Shown piece after piece: positions 3,767 through 56,861 of a stretch of DNA of 64,000 bases (position 1 is the stretch's first letter; each line of letters begins with the position of its first letter). The notes under the pieces were generated by a model. It was not told where the DNA came from. It searched no databases and was given only the letters and a program-made list of their open reading frames with translations. Position numbers and translations under genes: made by a program. Source of the DNA: Candidatus Eremiobacterota bacterium (lineage in GTDB: Bacteria > Vulcanimicrobiota > CADAWZ01 > Ess09-12). Location: contig JAVHLM010000001.1 in NCBI GenBank assembly GCA_031082125.1, positions 124,001 to 188,000 on the forward strand, in the 5' to 3' direction.

Positions 3767-4351
3767 GTGGCAGGAATTCATGATCCTCTCAAGGTGAATC
3801 TCGGCGTTGCTGATTACCTTAGAAATGCTTACCAGGTGGGCGCCCATAGGGAATCAAAGGAAAAGGCACCTGATGAGCGTGAAAACGCAGACAAGATAGA
3901 GCTCACGTCGGCAAGGGGCACAAAAGCCGCTTTCCAGAACGGGATAGCGCAGAACAATGCGAAGAAAAACACCACCGGCAATAAATGCGATGAATCCCCG
4001 CAGAGCAAGTCCTCGAATAAAACACTGCAATCACCTGCCTTAAAGCCCCAGTCCCCGGATGTAAACCTTCCGGGACCCGTGGCGCCGCCCTCTGACGGCC
4101 GGCAGGATTCCCTGTCGCAGAAGCTCACCATGGCGCAGATCGCCCAGAATGACGCCCTCAACGCAAATGAGACCCTCTGGCAGATGGCGGCAGAGCGCCA
4201 GAAGCATTCATGGAAGCTCATGGAGCTGATCCAGGACATGCAGAACGAGGTTATCAAAACCATTACCGACATAGCGGCGAAAAGAGACAAGGTCCTCACG
4301 GAAATCGCCACCCAGTGGGCCGCCGTGCTGGGAGGCTACGAGCTTAAATAG
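3767..4351 (+). CDS. Tagged orphan protein with helical C-terminus
   Basis: A 194-residue protein I do not recognise. It starts at GTG 3767, with a GAGGAGA Shine-Dalgarno at 3753-3759. There is no signal peptide or membrane helix. Residues 1-125 are charged and low-complexity (Lys, Ser, Pro, Asn) and carry the element ADKIELTS at 41-48, resembling the D-x-V-x-I element of neighbouring proteins. Residues 115-194 are predicted to be long amphipathic helix, rich in Gln, Met and Ala, and end in LGGYELK. It lies directly upstream of the clostripain-like and subtilisin genes on the same strand. A helical tail behind a disordered N-terminus resembles some secreted or needle-type proteins, but that is speculation. 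Confidence 0.7.
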   Translation: MAGIHDPLKVNLGVADYLRNAYQVGAHRESKEKAPDERENADKIELTSARGTKAAFQNGIAQNNAKKNTTGNKCDESPQSKSSNKTLQSPALKPQSPDVNLPGPVAPPSDGRQDSLSQKLTMAQIAQNDALNANETLWQMAAERQKHSWKLMELIQDMQNEVIKTITDIAAKRDKVLTEIATQWAAVLGGYELK

Positions 4352-4500
4352 GGTGCGTCACCGCACGTTCCTCCCGCCCTGAAGGGCCTTCCCTGAAGGG
4401 CCTCCCCACATGTTAACAATTTTGTAACATGAAATCTTGATCCAAAAAGCCTCCTTTCTGTTATTATAGTACCGGTTGAAAATGTCTTGAGACTCTCCCC

Positions 4501-6642
4501 ATGGCGGGACCAGAGAGGAGGATGGGCAGGTCTTATACCTGTCCAAAAAGCGTTATGTCGATAGACCGCATTGATTCATCCCCACAGGTGGCTTCTCTTG
4601 CACAGACAAGAAAGCCCGCGCAGGCAGGCGAGGCGGTGGCCAAGGAACAGGCACCGGCTGCAGCCCAGGACAGCGTGGAGATAGGGAAAAGCCCTCCTGC
4701 TGAAGGCACGCCTGCTGAAAGCCCCCCGCCTGAGGGGCCCCACAAGAAGAAGTGGACTGTCCTCGCTTACCTTGACGGGAAGGACAGCACCCTCCAGCGC
4801 CTTGCGCCGGGGAAGATGCGACAGCTCGAGGTTGCGGGGAGCGACGATAATGTCGATATCCTCGCGCAGCTCTCACGCTCAAGCTTCATCACCGACAGGT
4901 TCACCCACGACTGGAGCGGCACCAAGCGCTACCACGTGGAGAAGAACCCCAATCCTGCGCCTCTCATGGACGAAATGAAATCATGGTTCATCCCGCCATA
5001 TACCAAGAATATAATCTCACCGGTGGTAAAGGACATCGGCTCCGCTGATGCCGCCGATCCCCAGAACGTCAAGGATTTCATCAACTGGGGCATCCAGAAC
5101 TACCCCGCCGAGCACTACTGCATCATCTTCTACGGCCAGGGCGGAGGCTTCGCGGGCTCTCTCCACGATGCCGAGACGGGAAGCACCGTTGATAACAAGG
5201 AGCTTGGCGACATAATGCGCGAAGCAGCCAAGACCGCGGGACAGAAAATAGATGTGGTGGCCTTTGACGGGAGCCTCATGGCCCAGGCCGAGGTGGCCGG
5301 GGAGCTCAAGGACAGCGCCAAGGTCCTCGTGGGATCCCAGAGTGTCACAGGCCTCGGGAGCGTGCCCCTTGATGCCGTGATGAAGGACCTGAGGTTTGAG
5401 CTGCAGGACCGCGACATCACTCCCGAGGAGCTCGCAAAATTCTTCGTCTTCGAGGCTAAGTACCAGCCCGGCCCTACGGCGGAGATGATGGCGCCCACTT
5501 TTTCCGCCATCGATCTTGAAAAATACGAGGGCTTCAAGAATGCCTTCTCAGGTCTTGCAAAAGAGCTCCAGCACTGCATCTCTGTAAAGCCCGAGCTCAA
5601 GGAGGCTCTCAGGGAGGATCTCAAGAAAACACAGAGCTTCTTTGCCGGGGAGGGCGAGCCCTACCAGGACTACCGCGATGTCACTCATTTCGCCGAGACC
5701 ATCAAGGCCGACGAGCGCTTCAACAACTACAACTTCCCCGCCGTGAAGAAGGCTGCCGATTCCCTTATCAAGGCAGCAGGCGAGGCAGTCATTGACAACG
5801 CCCATGTGGGACAGGCCGTGAAAAACGCCAAGGGCATGTCGGCCTATATGCCCACCGATTACGGCTTCGATATGGCGCCCACTTTCTTCGACCCGCCCAG
5901 CTTCGATGCAAAACATGGCTATGACAAAGAAATATTCGCCATGGAAACGCAGTGGAACGATGTGCTTTCGGCCATTGCGAAGGACACCAAGATGCATGAG
6001 CTGATGAAAAAGATGGGCATGCCGGCCCATGCCATCAACAAGCTCGAAAAGATTGGGGAGAAGGGCGTAAAGCTCGGCAAGTTCGCCCTCCAGATAGCCA
6101 CCAATGCGGGCCACTATGAGGCCTACCAGGCGATGCGCAAGAAGCCGCCGGGAAAATTCTTCTTCATGCCTGCCGAGATAGCCACAAAAGTGGGTATCGC
6201 GGGAGGAGGCCGTCAGGCCTTCAACGGCGCGTACCAGGTCTTTGAAGGGATAAAGGACGACACCATCAAGAACAGGAAGACCATGGTCATCGACGGCGCC
6301 CTCGACACCGCCACCGGCGCCGCCGTCATGGCAACCTGCGTGGGCCTCTCCTTCGCCCAGTACGCGGGCATCGCCCAGCCTGCAGGCATTGCCGCTTTTG
6401 CCATCCCCTTCGCCAAGATGGCTTATGACATGTATAACCAGATGAAGGGGAACGTGAAGGGCCGCGCTGAAACCGATGAGCTCACGCCGAACCAGAAGCT
6501 GCAGCGCCTTGATCTGGACAGGCAGCTTGAAGCATCGAAGGTCGGCCAGGAAGAAGGCCCGACTTACATAAGCCCCATTGTGCGGGGTATCTCTGCCATG
6601 GGCTCATCAGGGCCCGTCGATCCCAAGGAGCTCCAGAAGTAA
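4501..6642 (+). CDS. Clostripain-fold (peptidase C11) protein with both catalytic residues replaced
   Basis: A 713-residue protein numbered here from ATG 4501. Initiation at ATG 4522 or 4555 is equally possible, because the GGAGG at 4517-4521 touches 4522 and no start is well placed. A disordered N-terminus contains QDSVEIGK (56-63). A C11-type domain follows from about 85: the family-opening strand LAYLDG, then YGQGGGF (211-217) where the catalytic His motif (typically DHGGGW) belongs, then FDGSLMAQAEVAGEL (255-269) where FDACLM with the catalytic Cys belongs. So His is Gln213 and Cys is Ser258. About 300 further residues include hydrophobic segments around 560-660. No signal peptide is present. 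The active subtilisin starts 30 bp downstream. Confidence 0.8.
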   Translation: MAGPERRMGRSYTCPKSVMSIDRIDSSPQVASLAQTRKPAQAGEAVAKEQAPAAAQDSVEIGKSPPAEGTPAESPPPEGPHKKKWTVLAYLDGKDSTLQRLAPGKMRQLEVAGSDDNVDILAQLSRSSFITDRFTHDWSGTKRYHVEKNPNPAPLMDEMKSWFIPPYTKNIISPVVKDIGSADAADPQNVKDFINWGIQNYPAEHYCIIFYGQGGGFAGSLHDAETGSTVDNKELGDIMREAAKTAGQKIDVVAFDGSLMAQAEVAGELKDSAKVLVGSQSVTGLGSVPLDAVMKDLRFELQDRDITPEELAKFFVFEAKYQPGPTAEMMAPTFSAIDLEKYEGFKNAFSGLAKELQHCISVKPELKEALREDLKKTQSFFAGEGEPYQDYRDVTHFAETIKADERFNNYNFPAVKKAADSLIKAAGEAVIDNAHVGQAVKNAKGMSAYMPTDYGFDMAPTFFDPPSFDAKHGYDKEIFAMETQWNDVLSAIAKDTKMHELMKKMGMPAHAINKLEKIGEKGVKLGKFALQIATNAGHYEAYQAMRKKPPGKFFFMPAEIATKVGIAGGGRQAFNGAYQVFEGIKDDTIKNRKTMVIDGALDTATGAAVMATCVGLSFAQYAGIAQPAGIAAFAIPFAKMAYDMYNQMKGNVKGRAETDELTPNQKLQRLDLDRQLEASKVGQEEGPTYISPIVRGISAMGSSGPVDPKELQK

Positions 6643-6672
6643 CGACACCATCAGGAAACGGAGGGAGAGAAT

Positions 6673-8022
6673 ATGTCAATCAACCCGAATATGAACACCA
6701 CCGGGATACAAGGGCAGAGCTATAGCGGCCCCGTGAGACAGCAGCAGTGCCCCGAGGATGACGGCACCTGCAAGCCCCTGGAGAACCCCGAGGACATGGT
6801 CTCCATTGAAAAAAAGGACAAGACCGACGAGGGGAAAATACCTATCATCATTACCTCGAAGAGCGGCCAGGCTCCCACGCTCCAGGGAGTGAAGAAGAAA
6901 GATGACCTTCCCCTGATCAACGGCTATACCACCGAGGTCACTGAAGAGCAGCTCTCGCAGCTTCTTCTTGCCAAGAGCGATGACATGAAAGTCTATGTTG
7001 ACGGCAAGCACAAAATGATTGAGGATCCCTCGGTGCTGATACCGAAGCCCGAGGAAATTCAGCCTTACAAGCTTGACGTGACTGTTCCGACTCTTGGCGT
7101 AGACAAGCTCTGGGAAAAGGGGTTCACGGGGAAGGACGTGACAATCGCCGTCATCGACACGGGCATCCACCCCCATCCCGACCTCAAGGGCAAGATAATA
7201 GGCTTCAAGGATTTCATCAATGGCCAGAAGGAGCCTTATGACGACCAGGGTCATGGCACCCACGTGTCAGGTGACTGCGCCGGCACCGGCGAGGCATCGC
7301 AGGGCAAGTACAAGGGCACGGCTCCTGACGCAAAGCTCGTGGGTATCAAGGTCCTCGCCAAGGACGGCTCAGGCCGCTTCTCCGACATCATCAAGGGCGT
7401 GCAGTGGGCCACGGAGAACAAGGAGAAATACAACATCAAGGTGATCAACATGTCCCTCGGCGGGCCGGCCTTCCAGTCATACAAGGACGACCCCATCTGC
7501 CAGGCTGTGGAAGCGGCTATGGAAAAGGGGATCATACCGGTCATTGCCGCCGGCAACTCGGGACCCAAGGCCAGCACCGTAGGCTCGCCGGGGATGGATC
7601 CCAACGTGCTCACCGTGGGAGCCCTCGATACAAAGCGCACTGTTGATCCCTCCGATGACGGGATCGCAAAGTTCTCGAGCCGGGGCCCCACTTACGACGG
7701 CCTCACAAAGCCTGACATCCTCTCACCGGGTGTTTACATCACGGCGGCGAACGCCCCCGGATCGCAGCTCGACCAGCTGCCCCAGATCCCCCACGTGGGA
7801 ACTGACTACATCAGCATCTCGGGCACTTCGATGGCAACGCCCGTGCTCGCGGGGATCGTGGCCGATATCATCCAGGCCAGGCCGGACCTCACGCCCCAGC
7901 AAATAAAAGAGGTCTTCACCTCCACGGCAAGCAGGCTCCCCGACCTGGACGCCAACCAGCAGGGGAACGGCGTGGTGCAGCCTGAAGCGGCCCTGGACAA
8001 GGCACTTGCCTTCGGCAACTGA
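6673..8022 (+). CDS. Subtilisin-family (S8) serine protease without signal peptide
   Basis: A 449-residue protease starting at ATG 6673 behind a GGAGGGA ribosome-binding site. Residues 1-55 are disordered and carry EDMVSIEK (40-47). Residues 56-123 look like an I9-type propeptide. The S8 catalytic domain follows with an intact triad: Asp162 in AVIDTGI, His194 in GHGTHVSG, oxyanion Asn295 in AAGNSGP and Ser386 in GTSMATP. The enzyme should cleave proteins after autoprocessing. S8 enzymes with propeptides are normally exported, yet there is no Sec or Tat signal, which suggests either intracellular use or another export route. It is the second gene of a likely operon with the pseudo-clostripain; a strong terminator follows. 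Confidence 0.93.
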   Translation: MSINPNMNTTGIQGQSYSGPVRQQQCPEDDGTCKPLENPEDMVSIEKKDKTDEGKIPIIITSKSGQAPTLQGVKKKDDLPLINGYTTEVTEEQLSQLLLAKSDDMKVYVDGKHKMIEDPSVLIPKPEEIQPYKLDVTVPTLGVDKLWEKGFTGKDVTIAVIDTGIHPHPDLKGKIIGFKDFINGQKEPYDDQGHGTHVSGDCAGTGEASQGKYKGTAPDAKLVGIKVLAKDGSGRFSDIIKGVQWATENKEKYNIKVINMSLGGPAFQSYKDDPICQAVEAAMEKGIIPVIAAGNSGPKASTVGSPGMDPNVLTVGALDTKRTVDPSDDGIAKFSSRGPTYDGLTKPDILSPGVYITAANAPGSQLDQLPQIPHVGTDYISISGTSMATPVLAGIVADIIQARPDLTPQQIKEVFTSTASRLPDLDANQQGNGVVQPEAALDKALAFGN

Positions 8023-8034
8023 TCTTTTACGATA

Positions 8035-8066
8035 AAAGAGGGGAAAGACGTGTCTTTCCCCTCTTT
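8035..8066. terminator. Bidirectional rho-independent terminator
   Basis: A perfect 15-bp inverted repeat (AAAGAGGGGAAAGAC at 8035-8049 and its complement at 8052-8066) has a tiny loop and is flanked by A and T runs on both sides. It lies between the convergent subtilisin gene and the knuckle-protein gene at 8091 and should terminate both. Confidence 0.85.
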
Positions 8067-8090
8067 TTACTTTTCGGGCAGTCTGCTCTT

Positions 8091-8846
8091 TTACCTGGTA
8101 TAGCTGCATCCGCCGGGCAGGTGATACTCCCCGCAGTAATGACAGAATGCCGGGTTTCCCCTCGGGACACCTGATGAAGGAGAAGGTGCCGGAGTCGCGG
8201 CAACAGGCTTCGGGGAGGGAGCAGGCGTCGGAGTCACGGCAACAGGCGTCGGCGAGGGAGCAGGCGTCGGAGTCGCGGCGACAGGCTTCGGGGAAGGCGC
8301 AGGTGCCGGAGTCACGGCAACAGGTGCCGGAGTCACGGCAACAGGTGCCGGGGTCGCGGCAACAGGCGTCGGAGAGGGAGAAGGCGTCGGAGCCACGGCG
8401 ACAGGCTTCGGGGAAAGCGCAGGCGTCGGAGTCACGGCAACAGGCGTCGGCGAGGGAGCAGGCGTCGGGCTCTCAACTGGAGCCACCGCCGCAATACTCT
8501 CTTCCCTCAGGAGATTTCCCGTGATCCCTGCAGATGACGGGGCATTCTCCTCAGACCAGCAGTACGCCCTGAATGTCCCCTGCGGGAGCTTTATGACCAT
8601 CCCCTTTACAGGCCTGCCGTCCCATATCACCTCGTTGTCAGCAGCATTGACAATCCTGAGCCTTTTTACCCCGGGGGCCACCGAGGCAATCCTCAGGCTC
8701 GAGCCTGTCCCCTCGCAGGTAAACTCCGAAAGGGAGCCCGGTGCCGATGAGTCGGCGCTGAATGTAAGCGTTTCAGCGCGGAGAGGGAGGCAGAACAATA
8801 ACAGCAAAAGAGCGGCACAGGCAGGAACAGATGCATCTTTTCTCAT
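8091..8846 (-). CDS. Exported Pro-rich protein with C-terminal CCHC knuckle (paralogue of 8897)
   Basis: A 251-residue exported protein of unknown function. A Sec signal peptide (about 1-24, ending LPLRA) is followed by a beta-rich domain of about 90 residues that contains [20 protein letters not shown] and FRAYCWS. Next comes a Pro/Thr/Ala linker of 13-residue repeats (about 120-225) and a C-terminal [17 protein letters not shown]. The spacing is C-x2-C-x3-H-x4-C, like a zinc knuckle. The head and tail match the upstream gene at 8897 closely, so the two are tandem duplicates that differ in the linker. They are 50 bp apart and probably co-transcribed. No family name comes to mind. Confidence 0.85.
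8168..8470. repeat. 39-bp tandem repeat encoding a Pro/Thr/Ala linker
   Basis: Imperfect 39-bp units, with some shorter 18-24 bp insertions, encode alternating blocks of the kind [13 protein letters not shown] and [13 protein letters not shown] inside the gene at 8091. The paralogue at 8897 lacks them, so the array expanded after the duplication. It is likely to be length-variable between strains. Confidence 0.8.
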
Positions 8847-8896
8847 TGAAGGCTCCTTTCACTCACACAGCAATGCCATGTGACAGTCCATCACCC

Positions 8897-9523
8897 TTAC
8901 TGGCCGGTATATGTGCAGCTCTTCACAGGATGATACCCGCCGCAGTAATGACAGAACTTCGATGAATTCGATGCGCCCTGGGGAAGGGGGTAATAAGAAG
9001 CCGGATACATGTTGTAATAGGGCTGGTTTGCCCGGTAATTGTCATAGTTGAGCGGCGAATCCCATGAGGTCCCGCTGTCGGCAGGGCTGTTCTTGAACTC
9101 CTCAGAGTAGCCCGGCACCGTTTCATCCTGGTCCTGGGGATATGGCGGGGGGGAAGGCGCCGAGTATTGCTGTGCCGCCCCAGGGACAAAGGCTGCCGCC
9201 ACCGAAGCACCGGAAGCTGATGCTTCCCCGCTCCAGCAATAGGCCCTGTAGTGTGCAGGGGGAAGATAGATCGAGGCGCCCGGGGTGGGAACATTGTCCC
9301 ACATCACGTCATTGTTGGCGGCATTCAGTATCCTGAGCCTGTTGATGCCGGGACCGACGCTGTTCAGTTGAAGAAACAGGCTGGGCCCCCTGCTGGCAAA
9401 CTCAGTCATTGCACCGCCAGGCGAGGAGTCCGAGCTGAAAGTGACAGCCTGCGCGTGAGCAGGCATCAGTGAGCCTGAAATAAAACTGGCTGCCAGAAGG
9501 AGAAATACAATGGTTTTTCGCAT
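8897..9523 (-). CDS. Exported protein with C-terminal CCHC knuckle
   Basis: The start is ATG 9523 (GGAGAGAGG ribosome-binding site), which opens directly with a signal peptide MRKTIVFLLLAAS..AHA. The frame can be read up to 9556, but that would bury the signal peptide. The 208-residue product has a beta-rich domain (FSSDSSPGG, INRLRILNAANNDVMWD, YRAYCWS), a Tyr/Pro/Ser-rich linker and the C-terminal CHYCGGYHPVKSCTYTGQ with C-x2-C-x3-H-x4-C spacing. The three Cys and one His are conserved in the paralogue 8091 while the linker is not, so the tail is under selection. It probably acts in the periplasm or on the surface. A minus-strand TATAAT at 9625-9630 could serve as its -10 box. Confidence 0.85.
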   Translation of the reverse strand: MRKTIVFLLLAASFISGSLMPAHAQAVTFSSDSSPGGAMTEFASRGPSLFLQLNSVGPGINRLRILNAANNDVMWDNVPTPGASIYLPPAHYRAYCWSGEASASGASVAAAFVPGAAQQYSAPSPPPYPQDQDETVPGYSEEFKNSPADSGTSWDSPLNYDNYRANQPYYNMYPASYYPLPQGASNSSKFCHYCGGYHPVKSCTYTGQ

Positions 9524-9695
9524 GGTGACCGCCTCTCTCCGGGAATATTCTGCCAATAAATTCTAGAGAAGAGAGAGCATCACCTTTTGCCGCAGAGACT
9601 CCCATATTTTAACCTTTCATTAACATTATATCCTTGATTTCAACTGCCCCGGCGTTGTAAAGTATAAAGAGGAACTAAAAAGGAGCAGAACCGCC

Positions 9696-10898
9696 ATGAC
9701 AGATTCATCAGCAATAGGCCGGACAGGCGCAGGACCTTATTATCCTTCTTCCCGTGAAGCCGGCAGGAGGGATGACAATGAGAAGGGCTCCGTCACACCG
9801 CAGGATACAGTCACCCTTGGCAAAGATCCCGGCGCCTCAGTGAAGCAGTCAGATATTCACAGAGCTTTTGAGAGCGCCATTGAAAGGGGGCCGGCCACCG
9901 AGAGCAAGAACACTGAAAAAAGCTCCTCAACAGAAGACGCAGAGGCGCTTTACCATGCCTTCCCCGTCGAGGGCGGCTACGAGGAGAGCTTCCTGGGCGG
10001 TGACAAAAAGGTCCCTTTCCCCAAAATGACTGATGACACTGCCGAAACGGTGCTCCACTTCGGCAGGGAAGGCGAGACCGTGAGGAATTATACCCATTTT
10101 TCGATTGTGATGAACAAGGACCGGAAGATGGCCCTCTTTACGGCAAACAACCTCGACGGGAAAAGCCTCAGGGATGATATCAAGCGGGGCAAATGGGAAA
10201 TCGACGAGATCATAGGCGCGGAAAACCAGCTTGGCGACTATATTTATTCCGGCAACAACCTCGACAGAGGCCACATGGTGAGACGCAGAGACGTAGTCTG
10301 GGGCGACAGGCAGGAAGCCACCAGAGCGAACAATGATACCTTCTTCTTCCCCAACGCCGTACCCCAGCATGGCTCCCTCAACCAGAACAACTGGCATGAC
10401 CTGGAAAACTGGCTCCTGCAGAGGGCGGACCAGCAGGAAAAACGTCTCAGCGTTTTCACGGGCCCCGTTTTCAGCAGCGATGACATCTCTTACCGCGGCT
10501 CACAGCTGCCGGGGGAGTTCTGGAAGATAGTCATCCTTGAGCGGGAAAGCGATCACAAGCTTGCCGCGGCGGCGTTCATGATGAGCCAGAAAGAACTCAT
10601 TCAGCACATCAATAATAAGAAGACGCCCCAGGGAAGAGGCGGCGGCGAGTCCCAGGACATGGTGGACACTTCAGCCGTGGCTCCCTACCAGGTCACCATT
10701 GATACCATTGAAAAAGCGACAGGCCTTGATTTTGGCGACCTCAAGGATATCGACGCCTATGCCCTCTTCCAGGAGGAACAGGGAAGGCGGGCCGGGAGCC
10801 GCCCCGCAGCAGCCACTTACCTGGAAAGCGACGCTGCCGCCCTGCTCCCCGAGCTCTCGCGGCATTTCATTGCATCGCCCGGCGATATCATAATCTGA
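9696..10898 (+). CDS. DNA/RNA non-specific endonuclease (NUC family) without signal peptide
   Basis: A 400-residue nuclease starting at ATG 9696 (AAAAGGAG ribosome-binding site). Residues 1-85 are disordered with the element QDTVTLGK (36-43). The NUC domain follows: HFSIVMNKDRKMALFTA, then the active-site motif LDRGHMVRRRD (189-199, catalytic His193), and FFFPNAVPQH with downstream Asn and Trp (217-233). These are the hallmarks of the Serratia/NucA-type betabeta-alpha-metal nucleases that degrade DNA and RNA. Such enzymes are usually secreted or held by an inhibitor. Here there is neither a Sec signal nor an obvious inhibitor gene beside it, while the N-terminal tag resembles those of the neighbouring proteases. 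Confidence 0.9.
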   Translation: MTDSSAIGRTGAGPYYPSSREAGRRDDNEKGSVTPQDTVTLGKDPGASVKQSDIHRAFESAIERGPATESKNTEKSSSTEDAEALYHAFPVEGGYEESFLGGDKKVPFPKMTDDTAETVLHFGREGETVRNYTHFSIVMNKDRKMALFTANNLDGKSLRDDIKRGKWEIDEIIGAENQLGDYIYSGNNLDRGHMVRRRDVVWGDRQEATRANNDTFFFPNAVPQHGSLNQNNWHDLENWLLQRADQQEKRLSVFTGPVFSSDDISYRGSQLPGEFWKIVILERESDHKLAAAAFMMSQKELIQHINNKKTPQGRGGGESQDMVDTSAVAPYQVTIDTIEKATGLDFGDLKDIDAYALFQEEQGRRAGSRPAAATYLESDAAALLPELSRHFIASPGDIII

Positions 10899-11006: not shown

Positions 11007-11387
11007 ATGTCCCTTAGCGTAGTTTCCTATGAAAAGTCACCGGGTGTCTTTGTTGTAGCACCGGAAGGCATTATTGACGCCTCCACCTATGAGGCCTTCG
11101 AGAAAAAGGTCGAGAGCGCCCTTGAGAATAAGCCCGGTATCCTGATCATGGACCTTGACAAGCTGAATTATATAAGCAGCATCGGCCTCCGCGTCATCGC
11201 CAAAGCCAAGAAGCACCTCAAGCAGACCGGCGGCACCGTGATGATGGTCAACCTGCAGCCCCAGATAAAAGAGGTGTTCGAGATTATCAAGGCCCTCCCC
11301 AAGGAGCAGATCTTCTCAAGCATCGCTGAGCTTGATGACTACCTCCTCACCATGCAGAGAAAATCCGTCGAGGAGAGAAAGGCTTGA
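11007..11387 (+). CDS. STAS-domain anti-sigma factor antagonist
   Basis: A 126-residue stand-alone STAS domain of the SpoIIAA/RsbV type with the usual beta-alpha order. The phosphorylatable loop is YISSIGLRVI (55-64), where Ser57 or Ser58 corresponds to the regulatory serine. Unphosphorylated, such proteins bind the anti-sigma kinase and free a sigma factor. Here the kinase-type protein (14444) and a matching PP2C phosphatase (12405) are in the same operon, which makes a partner-switching role very likely. The start at ATG 11007 has an AAGGAGG ribosome-binding site. No sigma-factor gene is visible nearby, so the output could be a sigma factor elsewhere or a non-sigma target. Confidence 0.92.
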   Translation: MSLSVVSYEKSPGVFVVAPEGIIDASTYEAFEKKVESALENKPGILIMDLDKLNYISSIGLRVIAKAKKHLKQTGGTVMMVNLQPQIKEVFEIIKALPKEQIFSSIAELDDYLLTMQRKSVEERKA

Positions 11388-12418
11388 TTGCACGGCTCGC
11401 CGCGGATGAGAGAAAAGATAGGCAACTTATGCAGAAGGCAGGTTGCCTTTTTATTGCCATTGCCTTCCTGATGGTCGTCACAAAGACCATTGCCGCGGCG
11501 GCGCCTCTGAAAAAGGTGGTCTATGCCCCCCAGTGGCTTCTCCAGGCCCAGTTCGCCGGCTATATAATGGCAAAGGAAAAGGGCTTTTACGAGAAAAGGG
11601 GGCTTGACGTGACCATTCTCCGCGGCGGCCCCAAGGCCTCGTCACTTGAGCTCCTTGAAAAAGGGAAAGCCCAGTTCGCCACTTTTCCGCTCACCACTGG
11701 AATTGTCAAAAGAGAGCAGGGCATCGCCCTTGTGAACATCGCACAGATCCTGCAGAAATCCGGCCTTATGTTTATCGCAAGAAAATCAAGCGGCATCAGT
11801 GAGCCCCGCGATATGATGCACCGGAAGGTGGGGATCTGGGATGATACCAACCTCCAGCTGGAAGCAAGGGCATTTTTCAGACGCCATGGCCTTTCAGTGG
11901 AAATGATCCCCCAGTCAGAAACCATGAATCTCTTCCTGCGGGGCTGCGTTGACGTGGCATCAGCGACCTATTACAACGAGTACGATGTCCTCATTAATAC
12001 GGGCCTCGACAGGGATGACCTCACCACCTTTTTTTTCGCCGACTATGGAATTGGCTTCCCCCAGGACGGCCTTTATACGCTTGAAAAGACCTTTACAAGT
12101 GATAATGGCGCACTCTGCAGGGATTTTGTCGCCGCATCCCTGGAAGGGTGGCGCTATGCTTTCGCCAACAAGAAGGAAACCATCCATGATCTCATAATCA
12201 TCATGCGCCAGCATCAGATCCCCGCCAGCCCGGTGCATCAGGAATGGATGCTCCGCCATATCGAGGATCTTGTCATGTATGGGAGGGAAGCCGTGGGTAA
12301 ACTCTCTTATGATGACTATATGAAAACCGCACAATGTCTCCAAAACGAGAAGATCATCAAGCACATCCCCCCCTGGAGCGCCTTTTACAAGGATTTAACT
12401 GCCCATGAGAAAAAATAG
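11384..12418 (+). CDS. NMT1/THI5-type periplasmic substrate-binding protein
   Basis: The TTG start at 11384 is preceded by GAGGAG and overlaps the STAS stop; ATG 11429, which opens the signal peptide more cleanly, is an alternative. The 344-residue product has a Sec signal (about 16-40) followed by an SsuA/ThiY/NMT1-like periplasmic fold. Family signatures include PQWLLQAQFAGYIMAKEKGFY and the GLDVTILRGG turn near residues 48-82. Members bind pyrimidine, thiamine-precursor, sulfonate or related ligands for ABC importers. No permease or ATPase gene is nearby. The gene sits between a STAS protein and the Cache-PP2C phosphatase that it overlaps, which suggests it delivers a ligand signal to the phosphatase sensor. 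That role is inference. Confidence 0.88.
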   Translation: MIARLAADERKDRQLMQKAGCLFIAIAFLMVVTKTIAAAAPLKKVVYAPQWLLQAQFAGYIMAKEKGFYEKRGLDVTILRGGPKASSLELLEKGKAQFATFPLTTGIVKREQGIALVNIAQILQKSGLMFIARKSSGISEPRDMMHRKVGIWDDTNLQLEARAFFRRHGLSVEMIPQSETMNLFLRGCVDVASATYYNEYDVLINTGLDRDDLTTFFFADYGIGFPQDGLYTLEKTFTSDNGALCRDFVAASLEGWRYAFANKKETIHDLIIIMRQHQIPASPVHQEWMLRHIEDLVMYGREAVGKLSYDDYMKTAQCLQNEKIIKHIPPWSAFYKDLTAHEKK

Positions 12419-14447
12419 AGGACTGGCCTTCCGCATGAGCCTCTCCATCCTTGCAAGCTGCACCCTTATCTTTGCAGGGATTATGGTCTATTACTATCTC
12501 TCCTCCATGCATCACCTCCGGAAGGAGATGGAGCGCCAGGCTATGCTCCTCACCACGCAGTCCCTGTACCATATGGACTCCATCCTGGAACCTATGGAGG
12601 AAGTGCCTGAGAATGTGGCCCATATCCTGGAAAAAAGGGCATTCCCCCAGGATAAGCTCATCTGGATTATTGAGACCATCATGGAGAACAACAGGAGCTT
12701 CTTTGCTTTTTCCGTCACTTATGCACCCTATGCTTACGACCGCGAAACAAGGCTCATGGACCTTTATTACTTCAGGAAAAACGGCGAGCTTACCCTCCGG
12801 ACAACAGAAGAGAAGCCTTTTAATTACCTCTATGAGGACTGGTTTATCATCCCGCAGATGCTCCACAGGCCCTGCTGGTCCGAGCCCTATTATGATGAGA
12901 ACGGGGGGGAGATCGTAATGGCCACTTACTCTGTTCCCTTCTACCGTCATGTGGAGGGGAAAGAGGTCTTTGCTGGCGTGGTGTCCGTTGATATTTCCCT
13001 CGAGTGGCTCCAGAATATGGTGGAGCAGATAATGTCCACCTTCAAGATGGAAGAGAAGCGCGGGAGTCTCGACCGGTTCTGGGATTCCATCCTGCTCCCC
13101 GCTCAAAGGCAAAGCGATACCCTGAATCCTATTGATTACAGCTTCCTTATCTCGAAAAACGGCACATTTCTCACTGTCCCGAGAAAAGAGCTCATCATGA
13201 ACGAGACAATCTTCAGCCTCGCGAGGAGCAAGAATGACGGGGAGCTTCGCAAGATAGGAAAAATGATGGTGGCAGGGGAAACAGGCTTCCTCAAGTATAT
13301 GAACCCTGACAGAGACAAGGAAAATATATTCAGCTTCGGGCCTCTCACCAGGAGCCGCTGGTCCCTGGGCATCGTCTGGAACACCGCGGTGATGGAGCAT
13401 GACATGAAGCAGCTCACTGCTTCAATGACAGTTCTCGGCATAATTGGTTTCCTCATTCTTCTCACGATGATAGTGAAAATCTCCAGGAGCATCACCAGGC
13501 CCCTCTCGCTGCTTTCAAAGGTCAGCGGCGAGATTGCCAAGGGAAATCTCGATGTGGTTCTCCCCGTTATCAGGGAACACGACGAGGTGGGAGATCTCGC
13601 GGTGAGCTTTTCCACGATGCGCGATTCCCTCAAGTCCTATATCAAAGAGCTCACCGAGACCACGACAGCCCGCGAAAGGATGAGGAGCGAGCTGGTCATT
13701 GCCCATGCCATTCAGATGGGCCTGGTACCCACAAAGTTCCCTCCCTTCCCCGACAGGTCGGAGCTCGACATTGATGCGGTGCTTCTCCCCGCCCGCGATA
13801 TAGGCGGCGACCTCTACAATTACTTTTTTATCGATGAGAATCATCTCTGCCTTGTCATCGGCGACGTGGCGGGGAAAGGCATCCCCGCAGCGCTCCTCAT
13901 GGCGAAGATGCAGACACTCATCAAGACTGCGGCAGGGGGCTGCCTGAAACCCGAAGAGATCGTGGCGGCGGCCAACAGGGAATTTTCCGTGAACAACGAG
14001 GAATGCATGTTTGTCACCCTCTTCTGCGCCATATTCGACACGGCAGGCGGTGAGCTTGCTTATTCCAACGCCGGCCACAACCCGCCGATACTGGTGAAGA
14101 ATGACGGGACAGTCACCTTTCTGCCAGATGCAGGAAACACTGCCGTGGGGCTGAATGAAGACGAGGTATTCCAGGAGCAGAGGATTTCTCTCTCAGCAGG
14201 CGAGTGCCTGGTCATGTACACCGACGGCGTCACTGAAGCCTTCAGCGTTGACGACAAGGAATTTTCCACTACGCGGCTGGCCGAGGTGGTGGGCAAAGTG
14301 GAGAAAGCCACGGCGACGCAGGTGAAAGAAGCGGTTCTCGGGGAGATCAGGGCCTTTACGCAGGGCGCCGAGCAGTCCGATGACATCACCATTATGGTCC
14401 TGAGATACCTGGGGGAAAAAGCAGCAAAGACCAAGGAGAGCCTATGA
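12405..14447 (+). CDS. Cache-HAMP-PP2C phosphatase (RsbU-like)
   Basis: A 680-residue sensor phosphatase. TM1 is at 13-33, a double-Cache-like periplasmic sensor at about 36-330, TM2 at 341-358, HAMP at about 358-412 (including SITRPLSLLSK), then a linker helix and a PP2C domain at 430-672. Metal ligands are present: DIGGDLYNY (465-473), IGDVAGKGIPAA (485-496), AGHNPP and YTDGVTEA. It should dephosphorylate the STAS protein encoded by the first gene of the operon when the sensor is activated. It begins inside the end of the binding-protein gene (14-bp overlap) and its stop overlaps the kinase start, so all four products are made together. Confidence 0.93.
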   Translation: MRKNRGLAFRMSLSILASCTLIFAGIMVYYYLSSMHHLRKEMERQAMLLTTQSLYHMDSILEPMEEVPENVAHILEKRAFPQDKLIWIIETIMENNRSFFAFSVTYAPYAYDRETRLMDLYYFRKNGELTLRTTEEKPFNYLYEDWFIIPQMLHRPCWSEPYYDENGGEIVMATYSVPFYRHVEGKEVFAGVVSVDISLEWLQNMVEQIMSTFKMEEKRGSLDRFWDSILLPAQRQSDTLNPIDYSFLISKNGTFLTVPRKELIMNETIFSLARSKNDGELRKIGKMMVAGETGFLKYMNPDRDKENIFSFGPLTRSRWSLGIVWNTAVMEHDMKQLTASMTVLGIIGFLILLTMIVKISRSITRPLSLLSKVSGEIAKGNLDVVLPVIREHDEVGDLAVSFSTMRDSLKSYIKELTETTTARERMRSELVIAHAIQMGLVPTKFPPFPDRSELDIDAVLLPARDIGGDLYNYFFIDENHLCLVIGDVAGKGIPAALLMAKMQTLIKTAAGGCLKPEEIVAAANREFSVNNEECMFVTLFCAIFDTAGGELAYSNAGHNPPILVKNDGTVTFLPDAGNTAVGLNEDEVFQEQRISLSAGECLVMYTDGVTEAFSVDDKEFSTTRLAEVVGKVEKATATQVKEAVLGEIRAFTQGAEQSDDITIMVLRYLGEKAAKTKESL

Positions 14448-16119: not shown

Positions 16120-17211
16120 CTATTTCCCGAGGAGGTTGGGGAAAAGGACAGTCCGGTAGTAACTGGAGTGGAGAGCTGCCACTGCGGGCCTTGTGAAGCC
16201 AAGGGTGCCTATGGCCTTGTCGGTTATCCCCTCCATGGTCCTGCCGAGGGCGTCGCTGAGGGGGCTCGTGATGAAGCCCATGGGGGTGAGGCGGTAAAGA
16301 GATCTGCCAAGAGAGAACAGGGATTTGCCGGTTTTTGCAAGAGGCACGAAATCCGTGAGGTGATCGATATATTCCCTGGCGGCACGCGTCACGTAATAGC
16401 CTTCAATGGTCACGGAATCATCAGCATTCCTTGAAGCCCTGAAGCGGACGGCGCCTTCGGTGGTGCCGGGAAATGGCCCCGAGCGTTTGTCGGGATTGAG
16501 AAAATGGAGCGTCAGCTCGCTTTTATTTTCCCCGTGGATCGTCTGCCGTGTGTCCACGACCGCCTCAAAGGTCCCGGCGGGCAACACGGCCCCCAGGCTC
16601 TGGAGCGGTTTCACTCCGTCCATCTTCACGATCACCCTGGTGATCGAGGGGTCCTGAAAGGGGCTTTTCTTCGCGCCGGCAGCTGTATGGTCGTGCCGGG
16701 GGATCTCCTCCCAGCGGCCCTCTCTCTCCACAGCGAGGATCGCTGCTGTGGGACCGTTGTTTGTTTTTCCCGCGGAGCCGCCGCAGAATATGCCGTCAAG
16801 CAGAAGGGTGTCAAGCTGCCCCTGCACATCCCTGTAAGTGCACTTCTGGTCAACAGCCCATATGGCATTCCCCCTGGCATCCAGGCCTTCGGAGGCCTGG
16901 CTCCCGGGATCCACCTCGCTTGGAGCTTTGAGGGAAAACCCCTCGGGGCCGTTCCCTGGCACAAGTATGAAAGGATCGCTGTCGGCAGCCTTTACAAGCC
17001 GTTTCAATGCGGGAGACAGCTCTTTTCCGCTTCCGGCCGGGGAGGGACGGGACGCAGTGACGCCGCTGCTTGCTTTGCCGGGGCTTCTCTCAAAAGTATC
17101 GCCAGGCAGTGATGCCGCAGCAGACGACGGTTCGCCACATTTGTGAGAGCCGGCCTTGTGAAGAGGCGGGGTCCCATGCAATGAGCCTGCAGGCCTGTTT
17201 TCCGATATCAT
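16120..17211 (-). CDS. Tagged orphan protein, unknown function
   Basis: A 363-residue protein I do not recognise. There is no signal peptide. Residues 1-60 are Ser/Pro/Gly-rich and contain PGDTFERSPGK (36-46), similar in position and pattern to the D-x-V-x-I element of the protease and nuclease neighbours. The middle (about 110-285) looks like a compact alpha/beta or beta-sandwich domain with CGGSAGKTNNG, VIVKMDGVKP and VTIEGYYVTRAAREYIDH. The C-terminal 75 residues are helical and mildly hydrophobic (LAKTGKSLFSLGRSLYRL, then the TPMGFITSPL segment). The start at ATG 17211 has a GGAGC-type signal. It is isolated between the metallopeptidase and CYTH genes. Confidence 0.7.
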   Translation of the reverse strand: MISENRPAGSLHGTPPLHKAGSHKCGEPSSAAASLPGDTFERSPGKASSGVTASRPSPAGSGKELSPALKRLVKAADSDPFILVPGNGPEGFSLKAPSEVDPGSQASEGLDARGNAIWAVDQKCTYRDVQGQLDTLLLDGIFCGGSAGKTNNGPTAAILAVEREGRWEEIPRHDHTAAGAKKSPFQDPSITRVIVKMDGVKPLQSLGAVLPAGTFEAVVDTRQTIHGENKSELTLHFLNPDKRSGPFPGTTEGAVRFRASRNADDSVTIEGYYVTRAAREYIDHLTDFVPLAKTGKSLFSLGRSLYRLTPMGFITSPLSDALGRTMEGITDKAIGTLGFTRPAVAALHSSYYRTVLFPNLLGK

Positions 17212-17305
17212 AAGATGCTCCCTGCTTTGGATAAAAGCTCTTAATAAGAATAGCTTAAACCGGGCGCTTCGTCAATGAACACTTTGTTAAAATTCCGCAG
17301 CCCTG

Positions 17306-30386: not shown

Positions 30387-30869
30387 ATGAACATCGATGC
30401 TGCAAAGAAAGAGATACGGGAAGCCCACAAGCTGAGGGCGGTGATGTACCACTACCTGCTCGAGGAGATGGAAAGGGCCTTCGGCGCAGAGGAGGCCCGG
30501 GAAGTATTCAAAAAAGCCACTTTCCGCAAGGGAAGGGACGTGAGAAAGCAGTATGAGGACTTTCTCACCAGGGGCGATTTTCACGGCCTTGCAAGGCATT
30601 TCGTGAAAGCCTCGGCCGCCGAAGGGGAGCTCTTCTCTCCCGCCATCGAGTCTGCTGACGGCGAAAAAGCCGTGCTCACCATGGCAGGCTGCCCTCTTGT
30701 GGAAGCCTGGAAGGAGCTGGGACTCGCGCCGCCAAGGATCAAAGTCCTCTGCGAGGTGGCGGCGGCGATAGACTACGGCACCTTCGAGTCGGAGAAGACT
30801 TCGCTTTCTTTCAGCAGCAGGATAGGCGCAGGCGATCCATGCTGCCGCCTCACCGTGGCGAAGAAGTAA
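30387..30869 (+). CDS. L-2-amino-thiazoline-4-carboxylic acid hydrolase-like protein
   Basis: The start is ATG 30387 behind AAAGGAG; the frame extends upstream to 30354 without a signal. The 160-residue protein fits the ATC-hydrolase-like family. It has a helical N-terminal half, then MAGCPLVEAWKELGL (99-113), CEVAAAIDYGTFE (122-134) and a final IGAGDPCCRLTV (146-157). The conserved cysteines C102, C122 and C152/C153 match the family pattern. Founding members hydrolyse a cyclic thioamino compound on the route to L-cysteine, but most relatives are uncharacterised, so the substrate is unknown. It lies 20 bp after the ankyrin gene and 14 bp before the FlhA/SctV-like gene, in one probable transcription unit. 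Confidence 0.75.
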   Translation: MNIDAAKKEIREAHKLRAVMYHYLLEEMERAFGAEEAREVFKKATFRKGRDVRKQYEDFLTRGDFHGLARHFVKASAAEGELFSPAIESADGEKAVLTMAGCPLVEAWKELGLAPPRIKVLCEVAAAIDYGTFESEKTSLSFSSRIGAGDPCCRLTVAKK

Positions 30870-30883
30870 GAGGAGGACTGCTC

Positions 30884-33025
30884 TTGAAGGACACGCCCCG
30901 CGAGGATTCTGAGGCGAGGACATGGCACCCTCCGCCGAAATGGCTTGAGCTGCTCTCTCTCATTCTGTTCCTGTCTCCCTTCCTTTTCATGGTGCTCTAT
31001 TCCCTGCCCCCCGGGTGGATAGATATTCTGATTGGCTCAGCCCTGGGGATGTCTTTCCTGCTTTTCGTCGTCGCCTTTTTTGTCAAAGACAACCATTCTT
31101 TCGCAATCTTTCCCACCGCAGCGCTTATTCTGACCCTTTTCCGCATGGCCCTGTACATCGCCTCCCTGAGAGCCGTCATCTGGAAGGGGATGGCCGGCGC
31201 CTCACCGGGCGTCGTGATTTCAGCCTTCAGCGCTCCTGAGGCGGCCGCAGGTCTCCTCCCCGGCCTTATGGCGCTCGCCCTGCTCATTTTCATCGAGCTT
31301 TTCATCATTGCCCGCCTGAAAGATAAGCTCCCTCTCATAGAGGAATATATGAAATCCTTCCTCCCACCGGGCAAGCCGAATCCCCCGCCGGATTTCTGGC
31401 TTACCGAGGAGGAGCGCAGGCAGAAATACAGAGAGGTCGATTTTGCCGGCGCCCTTGACGGCACCGCGAGATTTATCACTTTCGACGCTTGGCTTACTGT
31501 TCTTCTCACCGCTGCGGCACTCCCGCTGGGATTTCATATCGGCAGGACCGCAGGCTTTGCGCCCGATGCCGCCCTCCTCAAGATAGTGAGCCTCTGTGCC
31601 GGCACCGGGCAGGCCGCCCTCTATTCAGCCCTCTTCGTGGGACTCGCCTGGGCGTCGGTCTTCACCAGGGCTCCCTACGGCAAAGACGAGGAGAACGGAA
31701 ATAACCGAAATATCTCCATAGCGGTCTATGCTCTGGCAGTCATGCTGTGCCTCTCCGGGGTAATCATGCTGTTAGTGAAGGGCTCCTTTCCATGGTTCCC
31801 CTTCTTTACCACCTCAGGGGCCCTTGTGCTCATGGGGAGGCTTTACCCTTTGAATCCTTTCGTCACCTTAAAGGAGCTTGCCGGCATACCGGCAAACCTT
31901 CGGAGGAAAAAAGACCTGAGAGAGCCCGAAAAACCCCTTCCTCCCCTTTCCCTTGAGCTGGGCAAAGGGAACCAGGCATGGTTTCGCAGGGATACCTTCA
32001 TGAAGTGCCTCGAGCCTTATGCCAGGGAGCTCGAAACCGAGCTGGGGTCCACGATGCCTCCTGTCTCGTTCAGCGAGGGCAGGTTCGGGGAAAAGGAATA
32101 CATCATCGCGGTTACCGACGGCAGGAAGCAGACTTTTGCGAGGGAGTTCTGGGAGGTCCTTCCCGGTCGCCTTCTCGCCACCGGCCGTGATTGTGATCTT
32201 GCCGGGCTTGAGGGAATTGAAGCCTGCGAGCCCTTATACTGCCGCCCGGCCCTCTGGATCGAGGAATCTGCGAGGGAAAAGGCGGAATCGCAGGGGTGCA
32301 TCGTCATGGATCCCCATGCCGTGATAGCGCAGCACCTTGCAGGACTGATAAGAAAGTCCTTTTCCTTCCTTCTCACCCTGAAAGAAGTGGAAGCCCGGTT
32401 AAAAAGGCTGCGCAGAGAGAAATACCCCGTCGGAGACCTCATACCGCGAAGACTGACCAGAGAAAAGCTTCATTCCATTCTTCAGGACCTGCTGAGGGAA
32501 AGGCTCCCCATCGGAGACCTCAAGGCCGTGCTGGCGGCGATAAAAGGTGCCGCCTCAGAGGGCCATGACCTGCCGGAGCTCACCGAGGCGTTGAGGGCGG
32601 AGCTGGCAGGACAGCTCTGCCTGAAGAGAAGTGACAGTGACGGGGCGCTGAAGGTTATCACCCTTGCGAGCGAGCTTGAGAAAAAGCTCCTTCTCGCCTC
32701 CACGGACTTCGCCGGCGAAAAAAAGGATGAGCTCTTCCAGGGAGTCTCCATGGGCATAAAACTGGTATATCTCGAGTGGCTCTCGGCGGGAGCAGCCCCT
32801 CTCCTGCTGGTATCTCCGCCGGTCAGGTCGCTGGTAAGAAAAATCACGGCGCAGCCTCCTGCCGATCCGCCGCTTTTCTGCTGCGTCAACCCGATGAGGC
32901 TCACCATAGCAGCGAAAAAAGCAGATCCTTGGTGCCCTGACCTCACTGTCATCTCCTCAAGCGACGTGCCCCGCGATGTGAAGCTCTCTGTCATCGCCGA
33001 TATGAACATTGAGGATCCTTCCTGA
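30884..33025 (+). CDS. Divergent FlhA/SctV-family type III export-gate protein
   Basis: The start is TTG 30884, 7 bp after AGGAGG (30871-30876); a frame from 30839 exists but runs through the preceding gene. The 713-residue product follows the FHIPEP family. Membrane helices begin at about 22-66. FPTAALILTLFRMALYIASL (76-95) corresponds to FlhA FPTILLFTTLLRLALNVAST, and EVDFAGALDGTARFI (184-198) to EADFYGSMDGASKFV. Further helices run to about 325. The cytoplasmic domain (about 355-713) includes PALWIEESAREKAESQG (455-471), MDPHAVIAQHL (475-485) and LLRERLPIGDLKAVL (536-550). The family forms the nonameric export gate of flagella and injectisomes. The pore segment is degenerate (VSLCAGTGQAALYSALFVGL), and no other type III gene is in the window. 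Confidence 0.9.
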   Translation: MKDTPREDSEARTWHPPPKWLELLSLILFLSPFLFMVLYSLPPGWIDILIGSALGMSFLLFVVAFFVKDNHSFAIFPTAALILTLFRMALYIASLRAVIWKGMAGASPGVVISAFSAPEAAAGLLPGLMALALLIFIELFIIARLKDKLPLIEEYMKSFLPPGKPNPPPDFWLTEEERRQKYREVDFAGALDGTARFITFDAWLTVLLTAAALPLGFHIGRTAGFAPDAALLKIVSLCAGTGQAALYSALFVGLAWASVFTRAPYGKDEENGNNRNISIAVYALAVMLCLSGVIMLLVKGSFPWFPFFTTSGALVLMGRLYPLNPFVTLKELAGIPANLRRKKDLREPEKPLPPLSLELGKGNQAWFRRDTFMKCLEPYARELETELGSTMPPVSFSEGRFGEKEYIIAVTDGRKQTFAREFWEVLPGRLLATGRDCDLAGLEGIEACEPLYCRPALWIEESAREKAESQGCIVMDPHAVIAQHLAGLIRKSFSFLLTLKEVEARLKRLRREKYPVGDLIPRRLTREKLHSILQDLLRERLPIGDLKAVLAAIKGAASEGHDLPELTEALRAELAGQLCLKRSDSDGALKVITLASELEKKLLLASTDFAGEKKDELFQGVSMGIKLVYLEWLSAGAAPLLLVSPPVRSLVRKITAQPPADPPLFCCVNPMRLTIAAKKADPWCPDLTVISSSDVPRDVKLSVIADMNIEDPS

Positions 33026-55223: not shown

Positions 55224-56861
55224 TTACCTGTATCTGCCGCCCAGGGCCTGGTAGAGGCTCCCGAGGACGTCATAGGTCATGTTTCCCACTTGCGCCAGGT
55301 TATGCATCTCCTGCTGGGTGATGCCGTTCTCCGGGCTCAAGGTTTTCATGAGGGGCTTTACGGCATTCTGGAGCATCTGGTGCATGGCATCCTGGTCGCT
55401 TGATCCCTGGGGGCACTGCATCGAACCCATGCCCATGTTCTGTGCGCGGCGGGCCGCGTCGGCGAGGCCCTTGATCTCCTGCTCCGTGAAGCTCCGCGGT
55501 ACCGTGCTGTCAGGGAGGCCCACTGAGCCAAGGACATTCTGCCGGGCCTTGGCCTCACTGGCGATGCGCTCCGGTGTCGCCTGGTTCCTTGCAAAGTTGA
55601 GGCGCCGTTCCACTCTGTTCGGGTTCTTCAGCTCCCTCCCCAGGATGCCGTGAGTGATGAGCGGCACGTTCTGCAGCAGCATCTGGTCGCGGAGCTGCTG
55701 GCCCGTCCCGGTGTTGAGGGCGCCTCTGGCGATCTCCTTGAAGTCCTCCGTCGAAAGGGTCTTGTCGCCGCCGCCGAGCTTGGAAGGATCACCGATCATT
55801 CTGTCAAGCATGTTGAGGGTCCCCTCGCCCCCGGCGGTCCTTACCCAGGGCTCAAGCTGGCTCATCGTGGAGGCCATCTTTTCCTTTGTGAGATTCTGCT
55901 GAAGGTTCCCCAGGTTCTGCTTGAACTTGTCGAGGTTCCCTGAATTAAGCTTCTCAGCGAGCTTGGGAAACTTCTCCTGCATCTCCTTCATCACTTCAGG
56001 GGTGAACACCTTGTCCAGCGTCTCAGGCTTGAGGTCCTTGAATGCCTGCATATTTTCAGGCGTGATGACGCCCTTGAGATCAGGCGCAATCTCCTTGAGC
56101 TTCTCCACGCTTTCCTTGGTGAAGCCCTTCTCCTTTATCTCATCGCCTATTTTCCTGAGCTCCGGGACATGGAGGCCAAGCTTGGCAAGATTCACGGCCC
56201 TCTCCAGGGGTGTTTCCTTGGGCTTCCCCGCGCCATCGGCGGCAGCACCGGTTTCCTCCGCCTTCTTTGCCTGCCCGTCCATCACTTTTTGCACATCCTC
56301 ACCGATGCTTTTCACATTCCCCTCGGTGAGGACCGTATCTTTTACCGCTTTCCCCAGGCCGCCCATGCCGGCAAGGTCCATGCCCTTCTCTACGTATTCA
56401 CCGGCGCTCTGGAGCGGGCTTTTGGAGGTCTCGCCGGTATATTTCGGGGGCTCCTTCGGATCCTTGGCGCTTGATGGCTCACCGGTAAATTTCGGGGGCT
56501 CCTTCGGATCCTTGGCGCTTGACGTCTCGCCGGTATATTTCGGGGGCTCCTTCGGCTCAGACTTCGAAGGCTCCCCGAACTCCTTCTTTCCATTGACCGC
56601 AACCGACCAGGCGTCCCTGAAGGAGGACACCGAGGAGGATGGCTGCTCCCCGGGAACCTGAGGCTTTTCAGCCTCCCTGCTCAGGGATGTCTGTGACTCA
56701 CTCTGCTTTTTTACCGGGTCAGAGGCCTCCTTCTCTGCTGAAGGGGCTGAAGATGCAGCGGCCTGGGCAGGCGGGGGCGTTGACGGTGGCGGCTGAACAG
56801 GGGCACTCTGGCTCCTGGAAGAGGTTTCCTCTATTTCGGTTATGGTGTTGTCATCTGACAT
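55224..56861 (-). CDS. Repeat-rich orphan protein with helical C-terminal half
   Basis: A 545-residue protein with no signal peptide, starting at ATG 56861 after AAAGGAGG. Residues 1-100 are disordered, Pro/Ser/Ala/Gln-rich. Residues about 96-143 contain three 16-residue repeats of the type KEPPKYTGETSSAKDP. The remainder is mostly charged helix (Lys/Glu/Leu/Met), for example FPKLAEKLNSGNLDKFKQNL near 296, and ends in helices around SPENGITQQEMHNLAQVGN and LGGRYR. No family was recognised. Its layout, disordered start plus helical body, matches the other signal-less orphans of the window. It converges on the radical SAM gene. Confidence 0.75.
   Translation of the reverse strand: MSDDNTITEIEETSSRSQSAPVQPPPSTPPPAQAAASSAPSAEKEASDPVKKQSESQTSLSREAEKPQVPGEQPSSSVSSFRDAWSVAVNGKKEFGEPSKSEPKEPPKYTGETSSAKDPKEPPKFTGEPSSAKDPKEPPKYTGETSKSPLQSAGEYVEKGMDLAGMGGLGKAVKDTVLTEGNVKSIGEDVQKVMDGQAKKAEETGAAADGAGKPKETPLERAVNLAKLGLHVPELRKIGDEIKEKGFTKESVEKLKEIAPDLKGVITPENMQAFKDLKPETLDKVFTPEVMKEMQEKFPKLAEKLNSGNLDKFKQNLGNLQQNLTKEKMASTMSQLEPWVRTAGGEGTLNMLDRMIGDPSKLGGGDKTLSTEDFKEIARGALNTGTGQQLRDQMLLQNVPLITHGILGRELKNPNRVERRLNFARNQATPERIASEAKARQNVLGSVGLPDSTVPRSFTEQEIKGLADAARRAQNMGMGSMQCPQGSSDQDAMHQMLQNAVKPLMKTLSPENGITQQEMHNLAQVGNMTYDVLGSLYQALGGRYR
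56426..56573. repeat. Three 48-bp tandem repeats
   Basis: Units anchored on TTCGGGGG at 56443, 56491 and 56539 are exactly 48 bp apart and nearly identical. They encode the 16-residue Pro/Lys/Glu repeats of the orphan at 55224. The high identity suggests recent expansion; there are no unique spacers, so this is not a CRISPR. Confidence 0.9.

Follow-up and report, generated by a model that had tools for sequence, protein, structure and literature searches.

Many unrelated proteins encoded by this Eremiobacterota genome share a short tag that lies about 30-45 residues into a disordered, signal-less N-terminus, and the tag is likely to form half of a bipartite N-terminal signal directing them into flagellar-type (type III) export. 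The tag takes one of two interchangeable forms, D-x-V-x-[IL]-[GS] (V-type) or D-x-[FY]-x-[RKP]-[GS] (F-type). We read it as a type III export signal because the clostripain (C11) family has lost its Sec signals here, because tagged genes share an upstream element with the flagellar operons of seven genomes, and because tagged genes lie in flagellar or FlhA-like loci. Type III export signals are notorious for their degeneracy, and sequence alone does not normally reveal them. If our reading is correct, the tag and the promoter element together would predict substrates across an uncultured phylum from the genome alone, and the flagellar-type machine would be a general secretion route for enzymes.

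The window analysed is a stretch of 64,000 nucleotides (C1:124001-188000) from a genome of 7.43 Mb in 69 contigs (G000). Genome searches spanned 38 genomes of the phylum, this one included, and gene calls came from a simple method based on codons.

The tagged genes of the window

The first-pass annotation of the window had pointed to a similar short element near the N-termini of the proteins encoded at 3767, 4501, 6673, 9696 and 16120. All five elements are present in those genes (Table 1), and a Sec-like hydrophobic stretch is found in none of the five N-termini. Four of the five genes lie in the block 3767-10898; the pair at 8091-9556 within its bounds is Sec-secreted and does not belong to it. 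A further element proposed for the orphan at 39434 (DDFVTIGG) is probably a chance match, since it sits near the C-terminal end, at residue 392 of 410, in a gene without the regulon element described below.

Table 1. Tagged genes, tags, upstream elements and related features of the window (scores are held-out PWM scores of the element unless otherwise stated).
Feature	Coordinates	Strand	Remarks
Regulon element TGTTTACATTATTTTAA	3664..3680	+	upstream of gene 3767; score 21.1
Tagged 194-aa protein (gene 3767)	3767..4351	+	C-terminal helix 113-189
Tag DKIELT of gene 3767	3890..3907	+	residue 42
Regulon element TGTTAACAATTTTGTAA	4411..4427	+	upstream of gene 4501; score 21.0
Tagged clostripain-family (C11) protein (gene 4501)	4501..6642	+	PF03415 E=8.4e-18; no Sec signal
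Tag DSVEIG of gene 4501	4669..4686	+	residue 57 of longest ORF
Tagged subtilisin-family (S8) protein (gene 6673)	6673..8022	+	PF00082 E=4.1e-60; no Sec signal
Tag DMVSIE of gene 6673	6793..6810	+	residue 41; weak form, E replaces G/S
Regulon element TTTTAACCTTTCATTAA	9607..9623	+	common to gene 9696 and divergent Sec gene 8897-9556
Tagged DNA/RNA non-specific endonuclease (gene 9696)	9696..10898	+	PF01223 E=3.2e-47; no Sec signal
Tag DTVTLG of gene 9696	9804..9821	+	residue 37
Tagged orphan (gene 16120)	16120..17211	-	aromatic form of tag
Tag DTFERS of gene 16120	17083..17100	-	residue 38
Regulon element TTTTAACAAAGTGTTCA	17276..17292	-	upstream of gene 16120; score 15.3
Divergent FlhA-type (FHIPEP) gate protein	30839..33025	+	PF00771 E=7e-76; regulon element absent upstream
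Regulon member without clear tag (gene 55224)	55224..56861	-	element score 19.2
Regulon element TTGTTACATATTTTTAA	56995..57011	-	upstream of gene 55224

The clostripain and subtilisin genes, which are separated by a gap of 30 bp, possibly form one operon. The clostripain gene likely starts at codon 20 (MSIDRI), about 38 residues from which its tag is found. A Pfam search gave no accepted family for genes 3767 and 16120. Residues 116-176 of the former are homologous to a small helical protein encoded beside flhA (HMM E=4.4e-9), and its AF2 model has a long confident helix (pLDDT about 85-97 for residues 121-190) and low confidence at the N-terminus; TATAAT lies at -42 from its start, downstream of the element. 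The predicted fold of orphan 16120 is unusable (pLDDT 43), and its one relative, in G006, has no tag, which counts against type III export. Gene 55224 encodes a disordered N-terminus in which TSLSREAEK resembles the tag.

The Sec-secreted proteins at 8091-9556 are two tandem paralogs with a C-terminal FCHYCG.YH....C.YT pattern. The nearer paralog (8897) and the tagged nuclease gene form a divergent pair with one element in common (held-out scores 12.7 / 12.0). Adjoining the tagged block, at 11007-14851, is a cluster that on reading of the sequence resembles a partner-switching module: its products look like an anti-sigma antagonist of STAS type, an anti-sigma kinase, a periplasmic binding protein and a SpoIIE-type phosphatase carrying a membrane sensor.

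Form and position of the tag

Across 41 tagged proteins of the genome, a list curated by judgement with start codons assigned partly by eye or by ribosome-site score, the tag Asp has a median position of residue 36 (interquartile 33-41, minimum 30). An Ile within positions 3-7 is found in 30 of these 41 leaders and in 23 of 134 untagged disordered N-termini. Codons that would encode D[ST]VxxGK are present at five sites in the genome, four of them 34-57 residues into an ORF.

A proteome scan with the motif had been suggested as a check. The bare pattern D.[VI].[IL] is common anywhere and therefore fails as a genome-wide marker, with 14.0 occurrences per 10,000 residues in N-termini against 11.9 in the rest; the enrichment lies in disordered, signal-less N-termini. 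This can be seen in a blind sample of sixty 20-kb stretches (1.2 Mb, 956 genes) picked irrespective of the motif, where such N-termini contain 7 V-type tags against 1.8 (p=0.005) and 8 F-type tags against 2.0 (p=0.01). Ordered signal-less N-termini have only a slight V-type excess (14 against 7.7, p=0.025), and enrichment is absent from Sec or transmembrane N-termini. Inside proteins the tag is rare. Its signal comes from position and context and not from the five residues themselves.

Within the clostripains even the bare pattern stands out, although paralogs of common ancestry are not fully independent: it occurs in 7 of 16 paralogs of this genome that had not been seen at first pass against 0.22 in shuffled sequences, and in 11 of 19 N-termini from relatives against 0.47 (p<=0.0002 for each). 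Unsupervised de novo motif discovery in clostripain N-termini returned [PA]-[KGQ]-D-x-V-x-[LI]-[SG].

Cargo range and the two tag forms

The genome has 22 C11 matches, and the family is matched in 20 of the 38 genomes (this one included). Nearly all of the 17 clostripain paralogs inspected here bear some form of the tag directly before the catalytic domain, in V-type (QDSVEIG) or F-type (GDTFEKS, EDTFERK) versions and in variants such as DTFEKS, DAYEPG, DRYVPS, DTAEIS and EIFEQG. The nuclease of the window has QDTVTLG, and its relatives from other families within the phylum have TDHLELG, GDVFVRS, KDVFVRG, GDMFVRD, RDVFTRG or QDVYVPD at the same place. Since the two forms alternate within both families, the PGDTFERS of orphan 16120, earlier grouped with the V-type elements, is a genuine second form.

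Clostripains, orthologs of the nuclease and proteins with a dozen unrelated domains all have the tag at the same place. Besides C11 members, tagged proteins include a subtilisin, a nuclease, an esterase, two C92 permuted-papain amidases, a glutaminase (Gln_deamidase_2), 5'-nucleotidases, two beta-propellers, an MGDG synthase-like glycosyltransferase and orphans, with a DUF885 protein in the relative G018. The C11, S8, nuclease, esterase and 5'-nucleotidase families are typically extracellular. MGDG synthase-like proteins are normally intracellular, and the tagged one counts against type III export.

Replacement of the Sec signal

To set the tagged leader against the usual secretion signal of the family we used 80 clostripain loci of named genomes, 70 from outside the phylum group and 10 from inside. 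The ten inside loci were assigned by record titles, by identity of contigs and by similarity. The C11 domain is preceded by a lipobox or hydrophobic signal in 62 of the 70 outside loci and in 0 of the 10 inside (Fisher p=2.7e-8), whereas the V-type tag is found in 0 of 70 and 5 of 10 (Fisher p=1e-5). A single-sequence search of named genomes with the clostripain of the window gave no close relatives, while an alignment query gave matches. One clostripain of this genome (L090:5706-7415) retains a lipoprotein-type Sec signal and has no leader tag, and so serves as an internal control. Other C11 proteins (L063, L083, L085, L224, L231) have neither a Sec signal nor a recognisable tag, a point against type III export.

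Sec or lipoprotein secretion of the tagged proteins was considered and rejected, as they have no hydrophobic signal peptide or lipobox. What they do have in common with type III substrates is the lack of a Sec signal, a disordered leader and an export apparatus encoded in the same genome.

A promoter element shared with flagellar operons

A motif search of upstream regions revealed a 17-bp palindrome, TGTTAACAATTTGTTAA, before most tagged genes, in many cases with TATAAT some 37 bp downstream; TTAACA is present upstream of 18 of 40 tagged genes and 42 of 919 random genes. The TTAACA palindrome was exposed by a search for a sigma-28-type promoter (GCCGATAA), which was itself unconvincing (6/40 against 57/919). 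A PWM was trained on 21 tagged genes lying outside the window, outside the blind sample and outside the FlhA loci, and at a cut-off score of >=12 the element precedes 13 of 20 held-out tagged genes against 39 of 908 others (p=6.6e-13). About a third of the held-out tagged genes lack it, which weighs against type III export. In the window the score of 12 is reached by genes 3767, 4501, 9696, 16120 and 55224 and, through the site it has in common with 9696, by that gene's divergent neighbour; strong sites precede clostripain genes of several relatives (e.g. L059, L062, L064, L075).

Disordered N-termini are found in 21 of the 39 untagged genes with the element (p=2e-9), which suggests that other leader types may exist besides the tagged one. 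Untagged regulon members with disordered leaders include L189:14305, L204:10832 (3010 aa), L103:5144 and L183:3380.

The element also heads the flgB operon of this genome (flgB, flgC, fliE, fliF through to a fliI-type ATPase) and precedes an FlgE/F/G-type gene leading fliM, fliP, fliQ, fliR, flhB and flhA, the genes of both being Pfam-confirmed. In G001, G002, G003, G005, G008 and G012 a strong site precedes the orthologous leader gene at -88 to -116. Judged by sequence, then, tagged genes and export operons have an upstream element in common, and a common regulator may co-express cargo and machine.

The candidate export machine

This genome encodes FlhA, FlhB, FliP, a FliI-type ATPase, FliF and FliM. 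In G007 a tagged gene (EDKVSLG) adjoins flhA, in G001 and G002 tagged genes (NDAVNIS and GDEVSIK) lie upstream of the fliM-flhA operon, and in G002 another (DKTEISDEA) adjoins a second FliP, while on contig C38 of this genome an FlhA-like gene stands between tagged genes with KDTFERQ and GDSFVAS. Three independent lines, Sec loss, the shared element and this context, favour the suggestion in the first-pass annotation of an export or docking signal tied to type III secretion. That suggestion had drawn on the divergent FlhA-like gate of the window, and here it needs revision: the gate is the less probable machine because the element is absent upstream, and contig C6, with its complete flagellar apparatus, probably encodes the relevant one. 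Most of the non-flagellar FlhA-like genes are without the element, which counts against type III export.

The FlhA family is expanded in this genome, with 15 FHIPEP matches although there are just 2 FliP and a single full FlhB. FlhA cytoplasmic domains that lack the membrane part are encoded at C31:75182, C6:58989, C56:11984, C9:115001 and 116549, C2:222441 and C41:27116-28342 (L155-L161). One soluble product joins FlhB_C to FlhA_C (428 aa, L158:5093-6379), and two FlhA_C matches fall in a protein of 1941 aa. A similar FlhA_C expansion is present in G018, G032, G007 and G026. Orphan genes for a second FliP/SctR, with no other gate genes around them, occur in this genome (C2:208589, L160), on C2 of G001 and on C57 of G002, in the first two near glycyl-tRNA synthetase-like genes. 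Near flhA there is also a conserved small helical protein of 84-112 aa, comparable in size to needle or filament subunits (L152:9227-9481 in this genome; L336:3793 in G001; L337:14571 in G002; L338:123 in G003; L344:15027 in G026), whose gene has the regulon element in this genome and G001.

Proposed mechanism

In the mechanism we propose, the tag would dock the unfolded leader onto the cytoplasmic face of the gate, at FlhB_C or an FlhA_C-type domain. The docked tag would position a hydrophobic residue at the N-terminus to open the gate, in the manner of the gate recognition motif (GRM) and N-terminal signal of early flagellar subunits (PMC8983047). The hydrolases would leave the cell unfolded, fold outside and act there on prey, neighbours or polymers. 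More broadly, and tentatively, the phylum may use a flagellar-type machine as general secretion for co-regulated hydrolases that bear a new two-form N-terminal tag, possibly read by soluble FlhA_C or FlhB_C-FlhA_C proteins. The expanded set of soluble FlhA cytoplasmic domains, so far unaccounted for, would then have a possible role, and the tag offers testable material on recognition by the export gate. Our literature searches on type III secretion by Eremiobacterota, on clostripain in connection with type III secretion, on FlhA-FlhB fusions and on FlhA-domain paralogs bearing N-terminal motifs found no description of such a system.

Alternative explanations

Export by some other, undescribed non-Sec route, with the flagellar regulator shared only since secretion and motility are co-expressed, is in our view unlikely. 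The Sec contrast and the regulon point to export and co-regulation, not to a channel, and the scattered FlhA/FliP-like genes suggest that further machines exist, but tagged genes adjoin flhA, FlhA-like or FliP genes and the leader is shaped like a type III signal. Moreover, neither the encapsulin shell family (PF04454) nor the phage-type contractile sheath (PF04984, the sole sheath family covered) was found in this genome, and among all 38 genomes each is matched in no more than one or two.

The tag could instead be a cytoplasmic docking motif, by which an FlhA_C-type or other partner holds the hydrolases in storage, inhibits them or fixes their location within the cell. The expansion of soluble FlhA_C and FlhB_C-FlhA_C proteins would suit such a role, as would the divergent arrangement of one soluble FlhA_C gene and a tagged 5'-nucleotidase gene. 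A cell would pay dearly for free cytoplasmic proteases and nucleases, however, and with cargo families that are typically extracellular, and C11 proteins Sec-exported elsewhere, we think this distinctly unlikely.

It is very improbable that the tag is a dual-use, FlgM-like element that makes a protein's activity depend on whether it has been exported (regulation by secretion). In the phylum's own FlgM a motif in the same place looks tag-like by eye, including TDSFERS (G027) and DAAEIS (G031), and a solved FlgM has ESVQIS, but scores with the tag matrix are mostly insignificant, the exceptions being two FlgM windows at p about 0.03, and most FlgM of the phylum lack the tag Asp.

That the tag is an inherited linker of clostripain paralogs, matched by chance in other proteins, draws some support from the ubiquity of the bare pattern and the dominance of C11 members in the set; it is made extremely improbable by the unrelated domains with the tag at a fixed position, by the enrichment in the blind sample and by the held-out promoter element, which contradicts it. 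Loading of cargo into an encapsulin shell or contractile injection system, which a short motif on a disordered terminus recalls in form (cargo-loading peptides being similar), is scarcely credible in a genome with no PF04454 or PF04984 match.

Comparison with known systems

Type III export through the flagellar apparatus, the explanation we prefer, finds partial parallels in several known systems. C11 (PF03415) is the catalytic family of the largest cargo group, but its members elsewhere have Sec or lipoprotein signals. The anti-sigma-28 factor FlgM, the closest look-alike, is exported by the flagellar apparatus and can be used as an export moiety (PMC3595227). Like the tagged proteins it has a short disordered N-terminus starting M-x-I, and around residues 30-50 there is a motif that looks similar by eye, either [D/E]-x-V-x-[IL]-S or DSFERS-like. 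The tagged proteins differ in their large catalytic bodies and in the tag Asp, which is nearly invariant in them and not in FlgM of the phylum. As FlgM homologs they were rejected, 0 of 10 tagged N-termini matching the FlgM model PF04316.

In early flagellar subunits the GRM docks on FlhB_C and the N-terminal hydrophobic signal acts next; the GRM lies at least 30 residues from the N-terminus and has the form F-x-x-x-hydrophobic in rod and hook subunits (PMC8983047). The arrangement is alike here, with a hydrophobic element near the start and a second element at least 30 residues in. The difference is that D-x-[VF]-x-x-[GS] does not have the F-x-x-x-hydrophobic form and is carried by non-structural enzymes. 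A further parallel is with Campylobacter, where non-flagellar, effector-like proteins are exported by the flagellar apparatus via an amino-terminal signal (PMC2764114). The abstract of that source describes no short conserved tag or shared regulatory element, whereas in the genome studied here both are common to dozens of hydrolases.
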